Below are positions 1-35,940 of a stretch of 35,940 nucleotides of DNA, in pieces; position 1 is the first letter of the stretch, and each line of letters begins with the position of its first letter. The translations under genes were made by a program, and so were the position numbers. The notes beneath the pieces were generated by a model. It worked only from the letters and a program-made list of their open reading frames with translations, made no database searches and was not told the origin of the DNA. Source of the stretch: Magnetococcales bacterium (GTDB taxonomy: Bacteria; Pseudomonadota; Magnetococcia; Magnetococcales; DC0425bin3). Location of the stretch: contig JADGBZ010000033.1 of NCBI GenBank assembly GCA_015231175.1, positions 1 through 35,940 of the forward strand, read 5' to 3'.

Positions 1-66
1 GTTCGGGGCGAAGCCCTGACAAAGGCTTTCATATCCAGGCTTTTTTTGAAAGGGTACTGAATAGTT
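1..66 (+). repeat. Dispersed multi-hairpin repeat, copy A (cut by window edge)
   Basis: This is the 3' half of a repeat seen five times in the window, all in the same orientation. It starts inside the conserved GTTCGGGGCGAAGCCCTGAC core and runs through the 'CTTTCATATCCAGGC' segment to 'GGGTACTGAATAGTTAC'. It lies just beyond the 3' end of the membrane acyltransferase gene. The 5' half is presumably outside the window. Confidence 0.8.
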
Positions 67-2381: not shown

Positions 2382-4418
2382 TCAGCGGCGCCCGAAGAGT
2401 TTGGCCAGATCGGCAAGAGTCAATTTGACGTGGGTCGGGCGACCGTGGCCGCACTGGCCGGAGAAGGGGGTCGTCTCGATCTGCCGCAGGAGGGCGTTCA
2501 TCTCCTCCAGGGAGAGTCTCCGGTTGGCCCGTACCGAGCCATGGCAGGCCATGGAGGTGAGGATGGTCTCCTGGCGTCGTTCCACAGCGGTGCTGCTGCC
2601 GAAACGCTCCAGGTCATGGATCACGTCCATGATCAATTTTCCGGGTTGATTTTTGGCCAGGAAGGCTGGCAACTCGCGCACCAGGAAAGCGTTTTCGCCA
2701 AAAGGTTCCACGATCACCCCCATGTGTGCCAGTTCTGGCAGCGCATCGCGCAGTCGCTCCGCATCGGCGGGTGAAAGCTCCAGCACGTCGGGAATCAGGA
2801 GCATTTGCCGTTCGGATGGCATGGCGGCATGGGACTGTTTCAGGGTTTCATAAACCACCCTCTCGTGGGCGGCGTGCTGGTCGACCAGGATGATGCCATC
2901 TTCGGTCTGCGCAAGGATATAAGTGCCGTGAATTTGGGCCAGGGGGGTACCCAGGCTGACACCCCGCAGCGGTGGGTGCGCCGGCCCTTTTTCCGGAGGA
3001 GACAGGGTTGGGGCTGCATCTGGATGCTGACCACCCTGTGGCTGTGAAAGGGAGTCCGGGAATGGGGGGCCAGGGGGCTGGCTTCCTGGCAGGTCCAGGC
3101 CAGAGTCCTGGTGGGGTTCGGGACGAAGCCCTGACAAGGTCTTTTGTGTCAAATCGTTATCGAACAGGCCAGAGTCCTGGTGGGGTTCGGAGCGAAGCCC
3201 TGACAAAGCCTTTCGTGTCAGATCGTTATCGAAAGGGCGCTGAAGGGCGGCTGCCGAGGGAGAGGAGTGCGTTCTGGAAGGGGATGTCTCCTCCCAATGC
3301 ACCGGGCGACTCGCCGCTGCGGGTAGACGGGCCACCACCTGCTCACCTTGGGATGGGCCCATGGCGGGTTGCCAGGGGGCTGGCGTCGGGTTGCTATGAG
3401 CGTGTGTGGTGGAGAGGGCTTCCGCCAGGCTGCGCCGCACCGCTGCATGAATGAAATGGCCCTGGTGAAAGCGCACCTCCTGTTTGGTGGGATGGACGTT
3501 GACATCCACGGCGTCTGGGGGCATGTCCAGAAAAAGGGCCAGGATTGGATGGCGATCCCTGGGCAGGGTGTCGCCATAGGCCTCTCGGGCGGCATGCTGG
3601 ATGGAACGATCACGGACCCAGCGCCCGTTGACGTAGAGATAGATGCCGGAGGTGTTGGCCCGGTTCAGGGTGGGCAGGCCCAGCCAGCCAAAAAGGCTTA
3701 AATGATCGCTGCTGCCTGCAAACTCAAGACAGTTGTCGGGAAACTCTCTGCCAAACACGGTAGCCAGGCGGATACGGGTTTGTTGCGCGTCGCTGCCGCC
3801 ACGCATCTCCACCACGGGTTTGGCGTCGATCTGCAAACGAAACCCGACCTGGGGATGGCCCAGGGCGTGCCGCAGGATCAGATCGGTGACATGCGTGGCT
3901 TCGGTGCGATCTGAACGTAAAAATTTGAGACGCGCCGGGGTGTTGAAAAACAGGTTGCGGACCGTGACGCATGTACCCGGCACCATGGCCGTGCGCCGGG
4001 TCTCCTCAATGTGGCCTCCCCTGACCGGAATGGCGACCCCGTCGGTCTCTTCCCGGACGCGGCTGGCCAGCTCCATGAAGGAGACGGAGCCGATGGAAGG
4101 GATCGCCTCACCCCGAAAACCCAGCGTGCGAATCTGGAACAGATCCTCCACATGGCTGATTTTGGATGTCGCGTGACGCTCCAGCGCCAAACGGGCCTGG
4201 TCGGCGGTCATGCCGCAGCCATCGTCGGTCACCTGGATCAGTTTGCGGCCACCCTGCTCAATGCGTACATCGATATGGGTCGCACCGGCATCCAGGCTGT
4301 TTTCCACCAGCTCCTTGACCACCGAGGCGGGCCGTTCCACCACCTCACCGGCGGCAATCTGGTTGGCCAGGGTGGTGGGGAGGATTTTAATTTGGCGGGT
4401 GGATGGGGTATCGGGCAC
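2382..4418 (-). CDS. mutL: DNA mismatch repair protein MutL with endonuclease motif
   Basis: The 678-residue product has the GHKL ATPase N-terminus of MutL: IAAGEVVERPASVVKELVEN (residues 21-40), DAGAT, DDGCGM (65-70), TLGFRGEA (98-105). The DVNVHPTKQEV motif is at 305-315. A Pro/Ser-rich linker spans about 340-490. The C-terminal domain carries DQHAAHERVVYE (513-524), an exact DQHA-x2-E-x4-E metal-binding endonuclease motif, plus SMACHGSVRAN (622-632) and CGHGRP (656-661). It should therefore be a nicking MutL, as in bacteria without MutH, acting with MutS and the sliding clamp. The start codon is GTG (4416-4418); a weak AAGG lies upstream. The linker contains two tandem 23-residue units (396-418 and 419-441) encoded by repeat copy C. 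The gene is divergent from infA. Confidence 0.96.
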   Translation of the reverse strand: MPDTPSTRQIKILPTTLANQIAAGEVVERPASVVKELVENSLDAGATHIDVRIEQGGRKLIQVTDDGCGMTADQARLALERHATSKISHVEDLFQIRTLGFRGEAIPSIGSVSFMELASRVREETDGVAIPVRGGHIEETRRTAMVPGTCVTVRNLFFNTPARLKFLRSDRTEATHVTDLILRHALGHPQVGFRLQIDAKPVVEMRGGSDAQQTRIRLATVFGREFPDNCLEFAGSSDHLSLFGWLGLPTLNRANTSGIYLYVNGRWVRDRSIQHAAREAYGDTLPRDRHPILALFLDMPPDAVDVNVHPTKQEVRFHQGHFIHAAVRRSLAEALSTTHAHSNPTPAPWQPAMGPSQGEQVVARLPAAASRPVHWEETSPSRTHSSPSAAALQRPFDNDLTRKALSGLRSEPHQDSGLFDNDLTQKTLSGLRPEPHQDSGLDLPGSQPPGPPFPDSLSQPQGGQHPDAAPTLSPPEKGPAHPPLRGVSLGTPLAQIHGTYILAQTEDGIILVDQHAAHERVVYETLKQSHAAMPSERQMLLIPDVLELSPADAERLRDALPELAHMGVIVEPFGENAFLVRELPAFLAKNQPGKLIMDVIHDLERFGSSTAVERRQETILTSMACHGSVRANRRLSLEEMNALLRQIETTPFSGQCGHGRPTHVKLTLADLAKLFGRR
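3064..3246 (+). repeat. Dispersed repeat, copy C, inside the mutL coding region with a 69-bp tandem duplication
   Basis: The element found between genes elsewhere in the window lies here inside the mutL linker. It begins GGGGGGCCAGGGGGCTGGC and continues CAGGCCAGAGTCCTGG ... CGAAGCCCTGACAA. The second part is present twice: unit 1 at 3096-3164 and unit 2 at 3165-3233. Both are 69 bases, i.e. exactly 23 codons, so the mutL frame (minus strand) stays open. The two units differ at only a few positions. In the protein they read FDNDLT(R/Q)K(A/T)LSGLR followed by (S/P)EPHQDSGL. Confidence 0.85.
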
Positions 4419-11318: not shown

Positions 11319-11348
11319 GCCGCAGGATTGATGGGGAGTGTATGAATC

Positions 11349-11467
11349 GGGGTCCAGGGAGCTGGCTCCCTGGCAGGTCTGGGACAGCGTCCTGGTGGGG
11401 TTCGGGGCGAAGCCCTGACAAAAGCTTTCATATCCAGGCTTTCCTTGAAAGGGTGCTGGATAGTCGC
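11349..11467 (+). repeat. Dispersed multi-hairpin repeat, copy D
   Basis: A full copy lies just past the yqgE stop. Its first block, CCAGGGAGC-TG-GCTCCCTGG, is a perfect 9-base stem with a 2-base loop. The GGGGTTCGGGGCGAAGCCCTGAC core and the 'CTTTCATATCCAGGCTTT ... GAAAGGGTGCTGGATAGT' tail follow. It is the left member of a direct-repeat pair with copy E. Confidence 0.85.
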
Positions 11468-11849: not shown

Positions 11850-11991
11850 TGGATCGTCCTCTTGTCAGGGGGTTCATACTTGACTTCGGGACAAAGCCCA
11901 CCGAAGGCGCATACACACCCCGAGGATACTATTTTGGTATCAGTAATAAAAGCAAAAAATCAGCGAAACGATTCATCTGCCGGCCACGATC

Positions 11992-12117
11992 GGGGACCAG
12001 GGGGCTGGCTCTCTGGCAGGGTATTGGGCAGCGTTCTGGTGGGATTCAGGGCGAAGCCCTGACAAGGGCTTTCATATCCAGGCTTTTGTCAAAAAAAAAG
12101 GGTGCTGAATAGTTACA
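11992..12117 (+). repeat. Dispersed multi-hairpin repeat, copy E
   Basis: This copy is somewhat diverged: GGGGACCAGGGGGCTGGCTC, then CAGCGTTCTGGTGGGATTCA and GGGCGAAGCCCTGACAAGG. The CTTTCATATCCAGGC and GGGTGCTGAATAGTTAC tail is close to copy A, including the 'GAATAGTTAC' ending. It lies downstream of the hppA 3' end and forms a direct-repeat pair with copy D about 640 bases away. Confidence 0.8.
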
Positions 12118-32600: not shown

Positions 32601-32916
32601 GCTTTGCCAGCAGGATCTACCTGGCGACGCAAACGACCATGCCACTCCTGCTGTCGATGCGACACCTGAGGCATTGCAACCCCTCTTCCAGGAGGCGGTT
32701 GACATGTCGCTTGCCTACGATCCTGCCGTGGAGAGTGTCATCGAAAAAATAGCGTCCATGGTCTGCGCTCTCCCCCGCAGGGAGAGGCTGGCATCCATCC
32801 AGGCCACCCTGGAGGTCTACGATTTCGAGGCCTGTCTGACGCTTCTGCATGCCTGGGCCAATGCGGAGGGGATCCGGCTGACGGGAGAGCTGCCACCGGC
32901 ACATTGTGCGACGTGA
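29614..32916 (+). CDS. Soluble hybrid histidine kinase: receiver, PAS, PAS, kinase, receiver, HPt
   Basis: The 1100-residue cytoplasmic protein has no membrane segments. Receiver 1 (7-125) has Asp58 in [13 protein letters not shown], and a coiled coil spans about 130-160. PAS1 (160-312) contains an insertion around 264-298 before '[13 protein letters not shown]'. PAS2 is at 325-440. HisKA has His477 in [10 protein letters not shown], and the HATPase has DTGIGM and GGTGLGLAI. Receiver 2 has Asp791 in [12 protein letters not shown], and HPt has His941 in AHTLKG. A C-terminal helical module (1018-1090) resembles that of the upstream kinase. ATG 29614 is chosen for GGAAG upstream and because it overlaps the previous gene's stop by 8 bases. 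There is no output domain. Receiver 1 could accept phosphate from the upstream kinase, making a coupled relay. Confidence 0.93.
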
Positions 32917-33035
32917 TATGGTTGTGGCATGCAGCACCTTGCCAAAAAAGTCGGTGGTGTCTGGCGTTGCCCCAATAGTATGATATAGCGTAGATTTTCT
33001 TCGATGTGGTGACACGGCCATGGAAGGAGAAAAAT

Positions 33036-33131
33036 ATGCTGCCCTTGGCGATTTTTCTTGACGCCATCTTTCTATCTCTGGCAGCCTTCTCCAGGGAATC
33101 TGGACTATGGAGCCACTCTTTATGGTATTGA
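33036..33131 (+). CDS. Possible 31-residue hydrophobic leader peptide
   Basis: ATG 33036 follows GAAGGAGA (ribosome-binding site at near-ideal spacing) and opens MLPLAIFLDAIFLSLAAFSR, ending at TGA 33129-33131. The first 18 residues are strongly hydrophobic. It sits 17 bases before the start of the unknown gene at 33149 and could be a leader or small membrane peptide. With only 31 codons, chance is a serious alternative. The rest of the 232-base gap 32917-33148 shows nothing I recognise. Confidence 0.25.
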   Translation: MLPLAIFLDAIFLSLAAFSRESGLWSHSLWY

Positions 33132-33148
33132 CTTGAATGGAAGATTTG

Positions 33149-34689
33149 ATGAACAGCAAAACGCCGTGGGAAAATGCTGCGGAATCAGATGGTACAACGG
33201 ATTCTGAGCGATACTTGACACGACTCGCACGCAAGGCATTCTTGAGCCTTTGGAGTTATTCGAACCCGTATACCGACAAAGGTCGGTCGGAGGGCAAAGG
33301 AGACGGTAAGGAGCTGTGCGACCTAATGGTGGTATTTGGAAATAACGTCCTGCTGTTTTCGGATAAGCACTGCTCGTTTTCGTTGTCCCAAGACATCAAG
33401 ATTGCTTGGCCTCGCTGGTACAAGCAAGCTGTTGAGAAGTCTGCCGAGCAACTCTCTGGTGCGGAGAGATTTCTCAAGAAATACCCGACGCGCATTTTTC
33501 TTGATAAAAGTTGTAAATATCGCGTTCCCGTCACCATACTAAATCCGAACGTTGCGCGTTATTTCCTTATCGCAGTGACACGAAATTCCCATGACGCTGC
33601 CAAGAGATTCTGGGGTGGCGGTAGTTCTGGTAGCCTGATGTTAGACACCTCCATTGAGGGGGATGCTCACTATGAGATTCCGTTCCGCATTGGTTTTCCT
33701 TTGCAGAATCAGCGGTTTGTCCATGTATTTGACGAGATGATTCTCGATGTTCTTTTAGAAAAACTTGACACCGTTCCAGATATTGTTGCCTATCTTGCGT
33801 GTAAAGAGGCCTATCTCGGTCGCAAAAATGTGCCGGTTCGTGCAGCCGGCGAAGAACAGCTTCTTGCCAATTATATGCTCACTATGAAGGACGGCAAACA
33901 TATATTGCCTGATATTGCTGATAGAACAACTGGAGTGACCTTTCTCGAAGGGGGCTGGGAATCTTACTCTGCCAGTCCTCAACGATCTGCAAAAAAAGCT
34001 GCTGATGCTCCGAGTTACATGTGGGACAGGTTCATCGATTATCAAAGCTCTTTCATCCGTGCTGGTACCGCAACGTCGTTACCAGGTTGGAATTCAACAA
34101 TATCAGACCACGAACAAGTTGTCCGGGCCTTGGCCGATGAGACGAGGCAGTCCCGCCGAATGCTAGCCGAGTCATTTCGTCACGCTCTTTCCCAAAGCGT
34201 ACCCGGTCGCATGTTTGCGAGGATTTTTTTTGGCGATAGATCAGACAGGGCCTATGTATTTCTCACAGCCCCAAAGCTTGACGAGGGAACATATGAGCAG
34301 TACCGAGACATGCGACATGATGTGTTGCTTGCCTATTGTCTCAAGGCAAAATTAAATTTCCGGCGATCATCGAGGCTATTGGGATTGCTTCAGAACCATT
34401 GTCAGAGTCGTTTTCGTCGCAGGATTTTCTGTATGTTCCATTTGGCAATGAAAAACTTAATGCTGAGGAAACGACTGTGTGGCAGAACATGATGGCAGAA
34501 TGTGACATTCTGCAATCGCCATCAGTGAGTGCGATCAAGGGCGGGAACAATGAATTTCCGATGCCATTCAACCTTCCCAAGGAAGCCGAGTTTTGTTCAG
34601 CAAAGGCAGGAATGCCGATGAACCGGGCTATGCGCAGGGCTATGGCGAAGCAGGCGCGTGGTATACCTGTCTTGCCAACACTAAAATGA
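33149..34689 (+). CDS. Unrecognised protein with nuclease-like E...D...SDK pattern, frame-shifted (-1) near its 3' end
   Basis: The zero frame runs from ATG 33149 (GGAAG upstream; ATG 33137 is an alternative without a ribosome-binding site) to a stop at 34490-34492. Its last 46 residues are Arg-rich nonsense. A -1 shift around 34354-34360 continues instead as PAIIEAIGIASEP ... MNRAMRRAMAKQARG to the stop at 34687-34689. This gives a plausible 513-residue protein. The shift point is AAATTTC (34354-34360), in phase a canonical A AAT TTC slippery heptamer. The N-terminal region has GKELCDLMVVFGNNVLLFSDK, whose E...D...K order resembles PD-(D/E)xK nucleases. No family was recognised. It is visibly more AT-rich than the rest of the window. 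The next gene is a DNA methyltransferase. It could be a programmed frameshift, a pseudogene or a sequencing error. Confidence 0.6.
34354..34360 (+). promoter_or_regulatory. Candidate -1 frameshift slippery site A AAT TTC
   Basis: In the zero frame the codons are TTA AAT TTC, so the heptamer A AAT TTC fits X XXY YYZ exactly. Slippage by one base back puts CCG next and joins the two coherent halves of the gene. The -1 frame is closed by a TGA at 34318-34320, so the switch must happen after that point. The protein text makes sense only up to about this heptamer in one frame and after it in the other. Confidence 0.4.
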
Positions 34690-34692
34690 ACT

Positions 34693-34724
34693 TGTCTGCA
34701 CATAATTATATTTAATTACAGACA
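34693..34724. repeat. Inverted repeat between the unknown gene and the methylase gene
   Basis: TGTCTG (34693-34698) and CAGACA (34719-34724) are perfectly complementary and enclose two copies of the self-complementary TAATTA (34703-34708 and 34713-34718). It lies 4 bases past the upstream stop and about 120 bases before the methylase ATG. It could be a hairpin at the transcript end or an operator for control of the methylase. The remaining intergenic bases to 34840 show no other clear signal. Confidence 0.4.
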
Positions 34725-34840
34725 CATCATGAAAGAAATCCACAGCACTCTCATTGTTTTGTTGCTCTGTTGGAGATTGTTTGACCCATTTCGGAAGCAA
34801 AATTAAGTCCATCGGAATCGAGGGGGATGACACTACGACC

Positions 34841-35940
34841 ATGCGCCACGCTGTAACAGAGCAGGTTACCGGAACAGATCGATGCAAAAAAGCAATCGTT
34901 GACGCCGCTTCTGCCGAGAAAAAATCACAGCTCGGTCAGTTTATGACACCGTTGGGAATTGCCGACTTCATGGCATCAATGTTTTTGAATACTGCGGGGC
35001 GTGACGTAAGTCTGCTGGACGCGGGTGCTGGTGTCGGGTCTCTGACTTCGGCATTTGCCATGAAGACAATAGAGGACGGAGCGGCATCCATCCGGGCCAT
35101 GGCTTGGGAGATTGATGCTGAAATGCTCGGATCCCTGGCGGAAAGGTTTGACGATCTCGCTGGCAAAAGCAGATGTCGTGGAATCCCCTTTGATTACAGA
35201 ATCGATCATGGGGATTTTATCAATGCTGCAAGCCGTGTCATCTTAAGCCGCAAAGTTCCAGGTTTCACGCATGCCATCCTTAATCCGCCGTACAAGAAGA
35301 TCAATTCGGCTTCTTTCCATCGGCAGTTTTTACGGATGGCGGGCATTGAGACCGGAAATCTTTATTCGGCTTTTGTAGCGCTTTCTCTGCTTTTGTTGGA
35401 GGATGGCGGTGAAATGGTTGCCATTACCCCGCGCAGTTTTTGTAATGGTCCTTATTTCAGGCCGTTCCGTCAACTTTTACTAAAGCACGCCGCTCTTCAC
35501 CGCGTTCATGTGTTCGATGCCAGAGACCAGGCGTTTCGGGGTGATGATGTGCTGCAAGAAAATATTATCTTTCACATGATCAAGGGGGGTATCCAACGTT
35601 CGGTGATGATCTCGACCAGTACCGATGCATCGTTTTCCAACATCAGGAAGTGGGAGACGGATTTTTCCGAGGTTGTCATGCCCGGAGACCGCGAAGCGAT
35701 CTTTCATCTCGTGACCGACGAGAGCAACGTTGAAATGGGGCGGCAAATGGCGGCTTTCACGCGTACTCTGGAGGATCTTGGCATTGGCGTGGCCACTGGC
35801 CCAGTTGTCGATTTCAGGCTGAAAGACCATTTGCGAAAATGTGTTGACGTAGGCTGTGTTCCGCTTATCTATCCTCTTCACTTTTCACTCGATGTTCAAG
35901 TTTTTCCCTTCTTGACAGTTTTTTCACCCGTCAAACAGCC
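34841..35940 (+). CDS. Eco57I/BsuBI-type adenine-specific DNA methyltransferase, 3' end beyond the window
   Basis: The frame stays open from ATG 34841 to the window edge (366 codons). It contains 'KKSQLGQFMTPLGIADFMASMF', the N-terminal signature of gamma-type N6-adenine methylases. The SAM-binding motif I is LLDAGAGVGSLTSAF, and catalytic NPPY appears in HAILNPPYKKIN. It then has 'GNLYSAFVALSLLLLEDGGEMV' and ITPRSFCNGPYFRPFRQLL, the region following motif IV in the Eco57I and BsuBI/PstI groups. It would methylate adenine in a specific site, protecting DNA from a partner nuclease. The start is uncertain: the frame is open upstream, with TTG at 34781 preceded by GGAGA. A cognate endonuclease may follow outside the window or be the unknown upstream gene. 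Confidence 0.88.
   Translation, partial: MRHAVTEQVTGTDRCKKAIVDAASAEKKSQLGQFMTPLGIADFMASMFLNTAGRDVSLLDAGAGVGSLTSAFAMKTIEDGAASIRAMAWEIDAEMLGSLAERFDDLAGKSRCRGIPFDYRIDHGDFINAASRVILSRKVPGFTHAILNPPYKKINSASFHRQFLRMAGIETGNLYSAFVALSLLLLEDGGEMVAITPRSFCNGPYFRPFRQLLLKHAALHRVHVFDARDQAFRGDDVLQENIIFHMIKGGIQRSVMISTSTDASFSNIRKWETDFSEVVMPGDREAIFHLVTDESNVEMGRQMAAFTRTLEDLGIGVATGPVVDFRLKDHLRKCVDVGCVPLIYPLHFSLDVQVFPFLTVFSPVKQ

Follow-up and report, generated by a model that had tools for sequence, protein, structure and literature searches.

A probable insertion-sequence-split BsuBI/PstI restriction–modification operon beside a frameshifted copy of a solitary nuclease-like gene in a Magnetococcales genome

We analysed a stretch of 35,940 nucleotides from Magnetococcales bacterium (GenBank assembly GCA_015231175.1, contig JADGBZ010000033.1; hereafter the window), which comprises an entire contig (C33) of a draft genome of 3.81 Mb in 175 contigs, the window end being the contig end. 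From position ~33000 onwards, an AT-richer block carries two coding units on the plus strand, the first an open reading frame (ORF) that we call ORF A (33137–34689, in two frames) and the second an adenine methylase (34841 onwards). A sequence-only reading had proposed the block as a candidate unusual restriction–modification (R-M) or defence locus. We consider it most probable, at roughly 60%, that the block was acquired and holds two unrelated units side by side: a BsuBI/PstI-type R-M operon split by an insertion sequence (IS) and a copy, disrupted by a frameshift, of a nuclease-like family whose members are solitary and spread horizontally. The R-M part is ordinary, and the point of interest is the ORF A family.

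The block and its restriction–modification operon

The change in base composition claimed for the block was borne out by base counts: guanine–cytosine (GC) content is 48.2% at 33100–35600 and 57.6% at 1–32916, and the lowest of the 304 segments of 2.5 kb before position 32900 reaches 51.6%. The methylase region has a GC content of 51%, and its continuation on another contig of the genome (C23) has 52–54%, rising thereafter to 61%.

The methylase was correctly recognised by the sequence-only reading as being of the Eco57I/BsuBI type. Its first 348 residues, including the NPPY motif, are encoded at 34841–35886 (plus strand) and match the Eco57I family of Pfam (PF07669, E = 1.2e-9) and the PADLOC MTase_II models for BsuBI/PstI-type methylases (E = 4.3e-111), with 47–50% identity to plasmid methylases from systems with annotated BsuBI/PstI endonucleases (47–48.5% for the best matches among them). 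The methylase sequence ends at 35886, after 348 codons, where the gene is split by an IS (35886/35887). Searching the genome with an intact methylase homologue located residues 6–341 on C33 and residues 342–480 on C23 (83–499), and detected no second methylase matching this query in the genome at E ≤ 1. C23 starts with the other end of the same IS, followed by the methylase remainder and then by an endonuclease (match at 525–1451, 59% identical to a plasmid relative), the frame of which (516–1466) matches PF06616 (E = 1.3e-59) and PF17728 (E = 8e-48) over nearly their whole lengths. The start of the endonuclease overlaps the methylase stop (C23 positions 516 and 535), and the next gene beyond it is CoA-activase-like and lies on the opposite strand.

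Thus, the search beyond position 35940 that the sequence-only reading had proposed does yield a restriction endonuclease, and since this intact BsuBI_PstI_RE protein sits on C23 together with the methylase remainder, the endonuclease missing from the window is the standard one. The locus shares with known BsuBI/PstI systems the order of methylase then endonuclease with overlapping stop and start; indeed, the endonuclease lies directly 3′ of the methylase in all four homologous plasmid loci inspected. It differs from these plasmid systems in that the methylase is interrupted and has a foreign gene, ORF A, in front of it; the annotation of the four plasmid loci gives plasmid, mobile-element or hypothetical genes as neighbours and does not mention ORF A. 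The locus is therefore an R-M locus, as suggested, of the standard kind rather than an unusual one—it is the remains of a BsuBI/PstI type II system whose methylase is not intact, and not a working member. Its recognition site, assigned by family, would be CTGCAG; in Escherichia coli O145, a BsuBI/PstI-type system is linked to CTGCAG methylation (PMC3893438).

The IS would have split the methylase and left the downstream endonuclease frame intact. Because an expressed endonuclease accompanied by a split methylase would cut the unprotected DNA of its own cell, we infer that the endonuclease is silent in this genome, or alternatively that the population is mixed. The combination of a split methylase with an endonuclease frame that is still intact bears on how R-M systems die without killing their host.

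Recurrence of the insertion sequence

The last 54 bases of the window (35887–35940, plus strand) form the left end of the IS, the contig ending within the element; the sequence-only reading had overlooked both this end and the break in the methylase. We take them as a mobile-element end because four other places in the genome (on C29, C143, C86 and C16) carry them with different flanks. A larger piece of the IS on C4 encodes a transposase fragment, which, from inspection by eye and recall rather than a search, we take to resemble IS1-family InsB. The same IS also breaks up a gene for an HmaA-like defence helicase, the pieces of which lie at the ends of contigs, with residues 1–475 on C4 (491–1900) and residues 461–1172 on C143 (1–2164), each adjoining an IS end; the C143 piece holds one stop. 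With respect to target-site duplication, the methylase junction shares four bases and the HmaA junction three, which is too short to lean on. Given that one element splits the helicase as well as the methylase, it appears that acquired defence genes are being lost from this genome to a single IS.

Both the frameshift in ORF A and the IS break could instead be assembly artefacts or minority states of the population, with the R-M system and ORF A intact in living cells. The draft state of the assembly (175 contigs) and the contig ends at the IS speak for this explanation. We nevertheless regard it as unlikely, given that the two methylase pieces match the successive residue ranges of the homologue given above and each abut an IS end, and that the HmaA-like gene is split by the same IS into two contig-end pieces.

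As a separate observation on the IS, C16 (250–617 and 1048–1500) carries a gene for transfer-messenger RNA (tag ANDEIYGEALAAA), followed by a fragment that by eye is TIR-domain-like and then by a copy of the IS end.

Structure and decay of ORF A

The sequence-only reading had described the gene upstream of the methylase as encoding a single protein of roughly 513 residues. We find a main frame of 451 amino acids (33137–34492, plus strand) overlapped by a second frame of 117 amino acids (34336–34689, plus strand) that encodes the C-terminal part. Comparison with homologues places the likely start at the ATG at 33149, and the interval 33149–34689 spans 1,541 nucleotides, which is not a multiple of three. 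Homology switches from the first to the second frame near 34340, such that the last ~50 residues of the 451-residue frame fall outside the frame of the family, and the 117-residue frame ends with a basic tail as in close homologues. Intact homologues mostly have ~460–540 amino acids. The frameshifted copy in the window is probably inactive.

Family and distribution of ORF A

ORF A matches phrog_18195, a family of phage proteins (E = 6.9e-77; residues 18–417 against positions 9–404 of the 489-position profile), and matches no model in Pfam, NCBIfam or PADLOC. The sequence-only reading had called the protein unrecognised and had named a match to a housekeeping family as an outcome that would speak against its proposal; no such match was found in these three libraries, and the one family that does recognise the protein carries no functional name.

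Homologues are widespread on mobile DNA. Matches to ORF A were found in 141 plasmid records, of which 91 are typed as conjugative, and a search of 5,426 complete E. coli genomes with one copy, originally encountered on an IncN plasmid, gave matches in 21, all on plasmids. Homologues were further found on five viral contigs and in 152 stretches of genome contigs, of which the best 80 were kept. None of the 60 relatives of the source genome that were searched carries the gene, and although the phrog_18195 profile matched 144 of 398 genomes of the phylum, more than the tail was matched, among the matches listed, in only five (the source genome and those we designate G162, G172, G277 and G373). 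The other listed matches concern tail positions only (393 or later) and resemble the SEC-C part of SecA-sized ORFs. The phage records searched for the family gave no match, and a viral scan with the single ORF A protein as query gave no relative. A tree of 79 sequences places the copy from the window among sequences from beta- and gammaproteobacteria, a placement consistent with horizontal acquisition of ORF A, of which the tree alone is no proof. Clinical Klebsiella and E. coli plasmids are among the plasmid records, and the family extends across many phyla, yet none of the libraries searched gives it a functional name.

Members differ in their C-terminal tails. Among 97 members, 19 end in a SEC-C tail, 36 in a basic tail and 40 in neither, and two are cut by a contig end. 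The tail of the window copy lacks the C-terminal CxC...C(C/H) zinc motif that is present in the 19. Plasmid genes annotated as 'SEC-C metal-binding' or 'YecA family' belong to the same phrog_18195 family as ORF A over ~400 residues; two genes annotated in this way (L010 and L011) end in the SEC-C zinc motif, whereas the frameshifted window copy has a basic stretch at its end. We found no literature in the open-licence part of PubMed Central linking such SEC-C proteins to nuclease or anti-phage function.

Genomic context of ORF A homologues

We compared the surroundings of 97 homologues (1,236 ORFs; flanks of up to 6–8 kb, less at contig ends and ~1.5 kb for L013). BsuBI/PstI methylases and endonucleases are absent from all of these loci, and no neighbouring family recurs in more than four of them, save transposase-like ORFs (six loci). 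These counts bear on the suggestion of the sequence-only reading that the protein might be a new effector or an accessory component of the methylase system, for instance a methylation-aware nuclease coupled to the methylase. Its appeal lies in the direct adjacency of ORF A and the methylase on the same strand at similarly low GC content, and a few homologues do lie near other methylases, such as one that is ~2 kb from a cytosine R-M pair on an E. coli plasmid. Against it stand the 0 of 97 loci with BsuBI/PstI genes, the four BsuBI/PstI plasmid loci at which ORF A is not named, and the complete methylase–endonuclease pair that this genome already has; we consider such a coupling very improbable. 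The related idea that ORF A is the missing restriction subunit was rejected, given that the true endonuclease is on C23 and that none of the 97 homologue loci shows a pairing of this kind. Homologues thus do not recur next to methylases of the kind found here, contrary to what the proposed coupling would predict; this is one of the outcomes that the sequence-only reading had itself named as speaking against its proposal.

The neighbours of homologues include integrases, a minor tail protein, an Rz-like spanin, a late transcription activator and type I R-M subunits. In a locus on a Xanthomonas campestris plasmid (L009, 4234–9482), a PD-Lambda-4_A gene (PADLOC, E = 1.3e-280) immediately precedes the homologue.

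Predicted fold of ORF A

The sequence-only reading had noted a pattern of E, D and SDK reminiscent of PD-(D/E)XK nucleases, a likeness that structure prediction upholds. An AlphaFold2 model of 402 residues built from 65 aligned sequences reached a predicted local distance difference test (pLDDT) score of 93.6 and a predicted template modelling (pTM) score of 0.92, and its order of helix, strands, long helix and strand corresponds to an alpha-beta-beta-beta-alpha-beta core. PD-(D/E)XK nucleases lead the re-alignment with VIA for residues ~13–232, headed by Nt.BspD6I (Z = 9.3; 181 residues, root-mean-square deviation (rmsd) 4.3) and the small subunit of R.BspD6I (Z = 8.3; 147 residues, rmsd 3.6), followed by Can2/Cdn1 (Z ~7), SduA (Z = 6.3, 158 residues, rmsd 4.7; inside the ambiguous range of the tool) and McrBC (Z = 6.1). 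The model of an intact homologue of 516 amino acids (L081, from Pseudomonas sp.; pLDDT 90.7) gave the same leaders (Z = 8.5 and 7.7). For the N-terminal ~230 residues of ORF A, a fold like that of PD-(D/E)XK nucleases is thus predicted at high confidence.

The AlwI-like enzymes Nt.BspD6I and R.BspD6I are the best structural neighbours of this domain, and ORF A differs from them in having no detected sequence relation, another second domain and a serine at the (D/E)xK position. Shedu SduA, Can2, McrC and Upx, PD-(D/E)XK defence nucleases that are stand-alone or ancillary, show a weaker structural likeness (Z ~6–7), from which ORF A is set apart by the lack of a match to SduA_C (PF14082; 0 of 65 members), the lack of recurrent partners, and a C-terminal domain and tails of its own. 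Shedu and Upx are single-protein systems. RE_AlwI (PF09491) is likewise absent from the Pfam matches of the 65 members, and two of them match NERD (PF08378) weakly (best E = 0.034). No convincing sequence relation to chains in the PDB was found.

The pattern itself is present and conserved. In the numbering of the frame from 33137, in which S75-D76-K77 is the SDK, all 65 aligned sequences share E24, E59, D62, F74, S75 and K77 without exception. The invariance of E59 and D62 is partly selected, because both lie in the seed pattern that collected most of the rows; S75 and K77 lie outside the patterns used to search genome contigs. A second conserved region after the nuclease-like domain contains D297, R337, R340 and R393.

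Possible function of ORF A

The most likely function is that of a solo anti-mobile-element nuclease family, here represented by a decayed copy beside a decaying R-M system. Intact members would work on their own as metal-dependent nucleases that attack phage or plasmid DNA entering the cell; their middle domain might recognise a trigger, and the tail might anchor nucleic acid. The family would have been spread by phages, plasmids and islands, with its target, trigger and beneficiary as yet putative. More tentatively, and with somewhat less than even odds, the members may form an as yet undescribed cross-phylum group of single-gene nucleases with a non-canonical E...ExxD...SxK site and exchangeable tails (a SEC-C zinc knuckle, a basic peptide or none), which would be borne on prophages, conjugative plasmids and islands and would need no partner in acting against competing mobile DNA, one IS having split two separate defence genes in this genome. 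If ORF A is a solo nuclease, it would represent a simple anti-mobile-element system on plasmids, the active site of which departs from the textbook motif.

Several results weigh against this function. Foldseek returned no match to the ORF A model in the PDB or BFVD at E ≤ 0.001, a negative that extends to the families these libraries list, and the VIA Z values barely exceed the level that the tool treats as ambiguous. Profile comparison with the SduA, AlwI (three sequences only) and NERD families gave nothing, a weak comparison because not even these known PD-(D/E)XK families recovered each other. The position at which (D/E)xK would place an acid is occupied by serine S75, and in a broader alignment of 16 sequences two divergent members (L014 and L015) have F and R in place of S75 and K77. 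The surroundings of homologues show a modest excess of defence-related matches, with 275 PADLOC families matched in 142 adjacent ORFs and 151 in 136 control ORFs. The neighbours comprised 156 listed ORFs, of which 148 passed the distance and length filter and 142 were scanned, six long ones being dropped for size; the control consisted of 17 arbitrary loci, of 20 requested, and itself held a type I R-M locus. As the excess is modest and the control contained this locus, we claim no enrichment in defence islands.

The altered residues of L014 and L015, together with the serine in place of the acid, indicate that some family members may be inactive; the two sequences possibly represent an inactive or altered branch. 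L014 lies between ORFs that by eye resemble phage tail genes. A broader alternative is that ORF A has the PD-(D/E)XK fold without a nuclease role, using a degenerate site to bind nucleic acid or a ligand. This would account for a serine that is invariant in 65 sequences where E or D is expected, and for the two divergent members that alter both S and K. A dead site would, however, be unusual in preserving E24, E59, D62 and K77 throughout the same 65 sequences, and enzymes of the Cfr10I type retain activity although they have S-x-K and their glutamate is relocated; we judge a non-nuclease role improbable.

A nuclease of this kind could also serve its carrier rather than the host, for example as a moron nuclease in superinfection exclusion or in competition between elements. 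Homologues beside phage tail, lysis and late-control genes and on conjugative plasmids fit such a role, and homologues on chromosomal contigs of many phyla, where no phage context is established, do not. This possibility, which we hold to be rather unlikely though the most credible of the alternatives, differs from defence in the beneficiary and not in the mechanism.

Other features of the window

The small hydrophobic 'leader-like' frame of 31 amino acids (33036–33131, plus strand) that the sequence-only reading had listed upstream of ORF A is to be discounted: the window contains 127 ATG frames of 25–50 amino acids (0.7 per 200 bp), so that the frame is at chance level.

A high-copy repeat of ~80–110 bp was encountered at window positions 1–51, 2242–2352, 3062–3214, 11346–11450 and 11989–12085 and on C23 (locus L049) at 2874–3110. 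A query of 237 bases matched 51 places in the genome, and the repeat is also found at many places in two genomes of the same genus. Copies lie in frame within coding genes, including an ORF that by eye is MutL-like (window 2382–4418, minus strand). A tandem pair is situated within the CoA-activase-like ORF on C23, and the equivalent region in the two same-genus genomes appears to be without the repeat. We presume that it resembles the coding-sequence palindromic elements known from Rickettsia.

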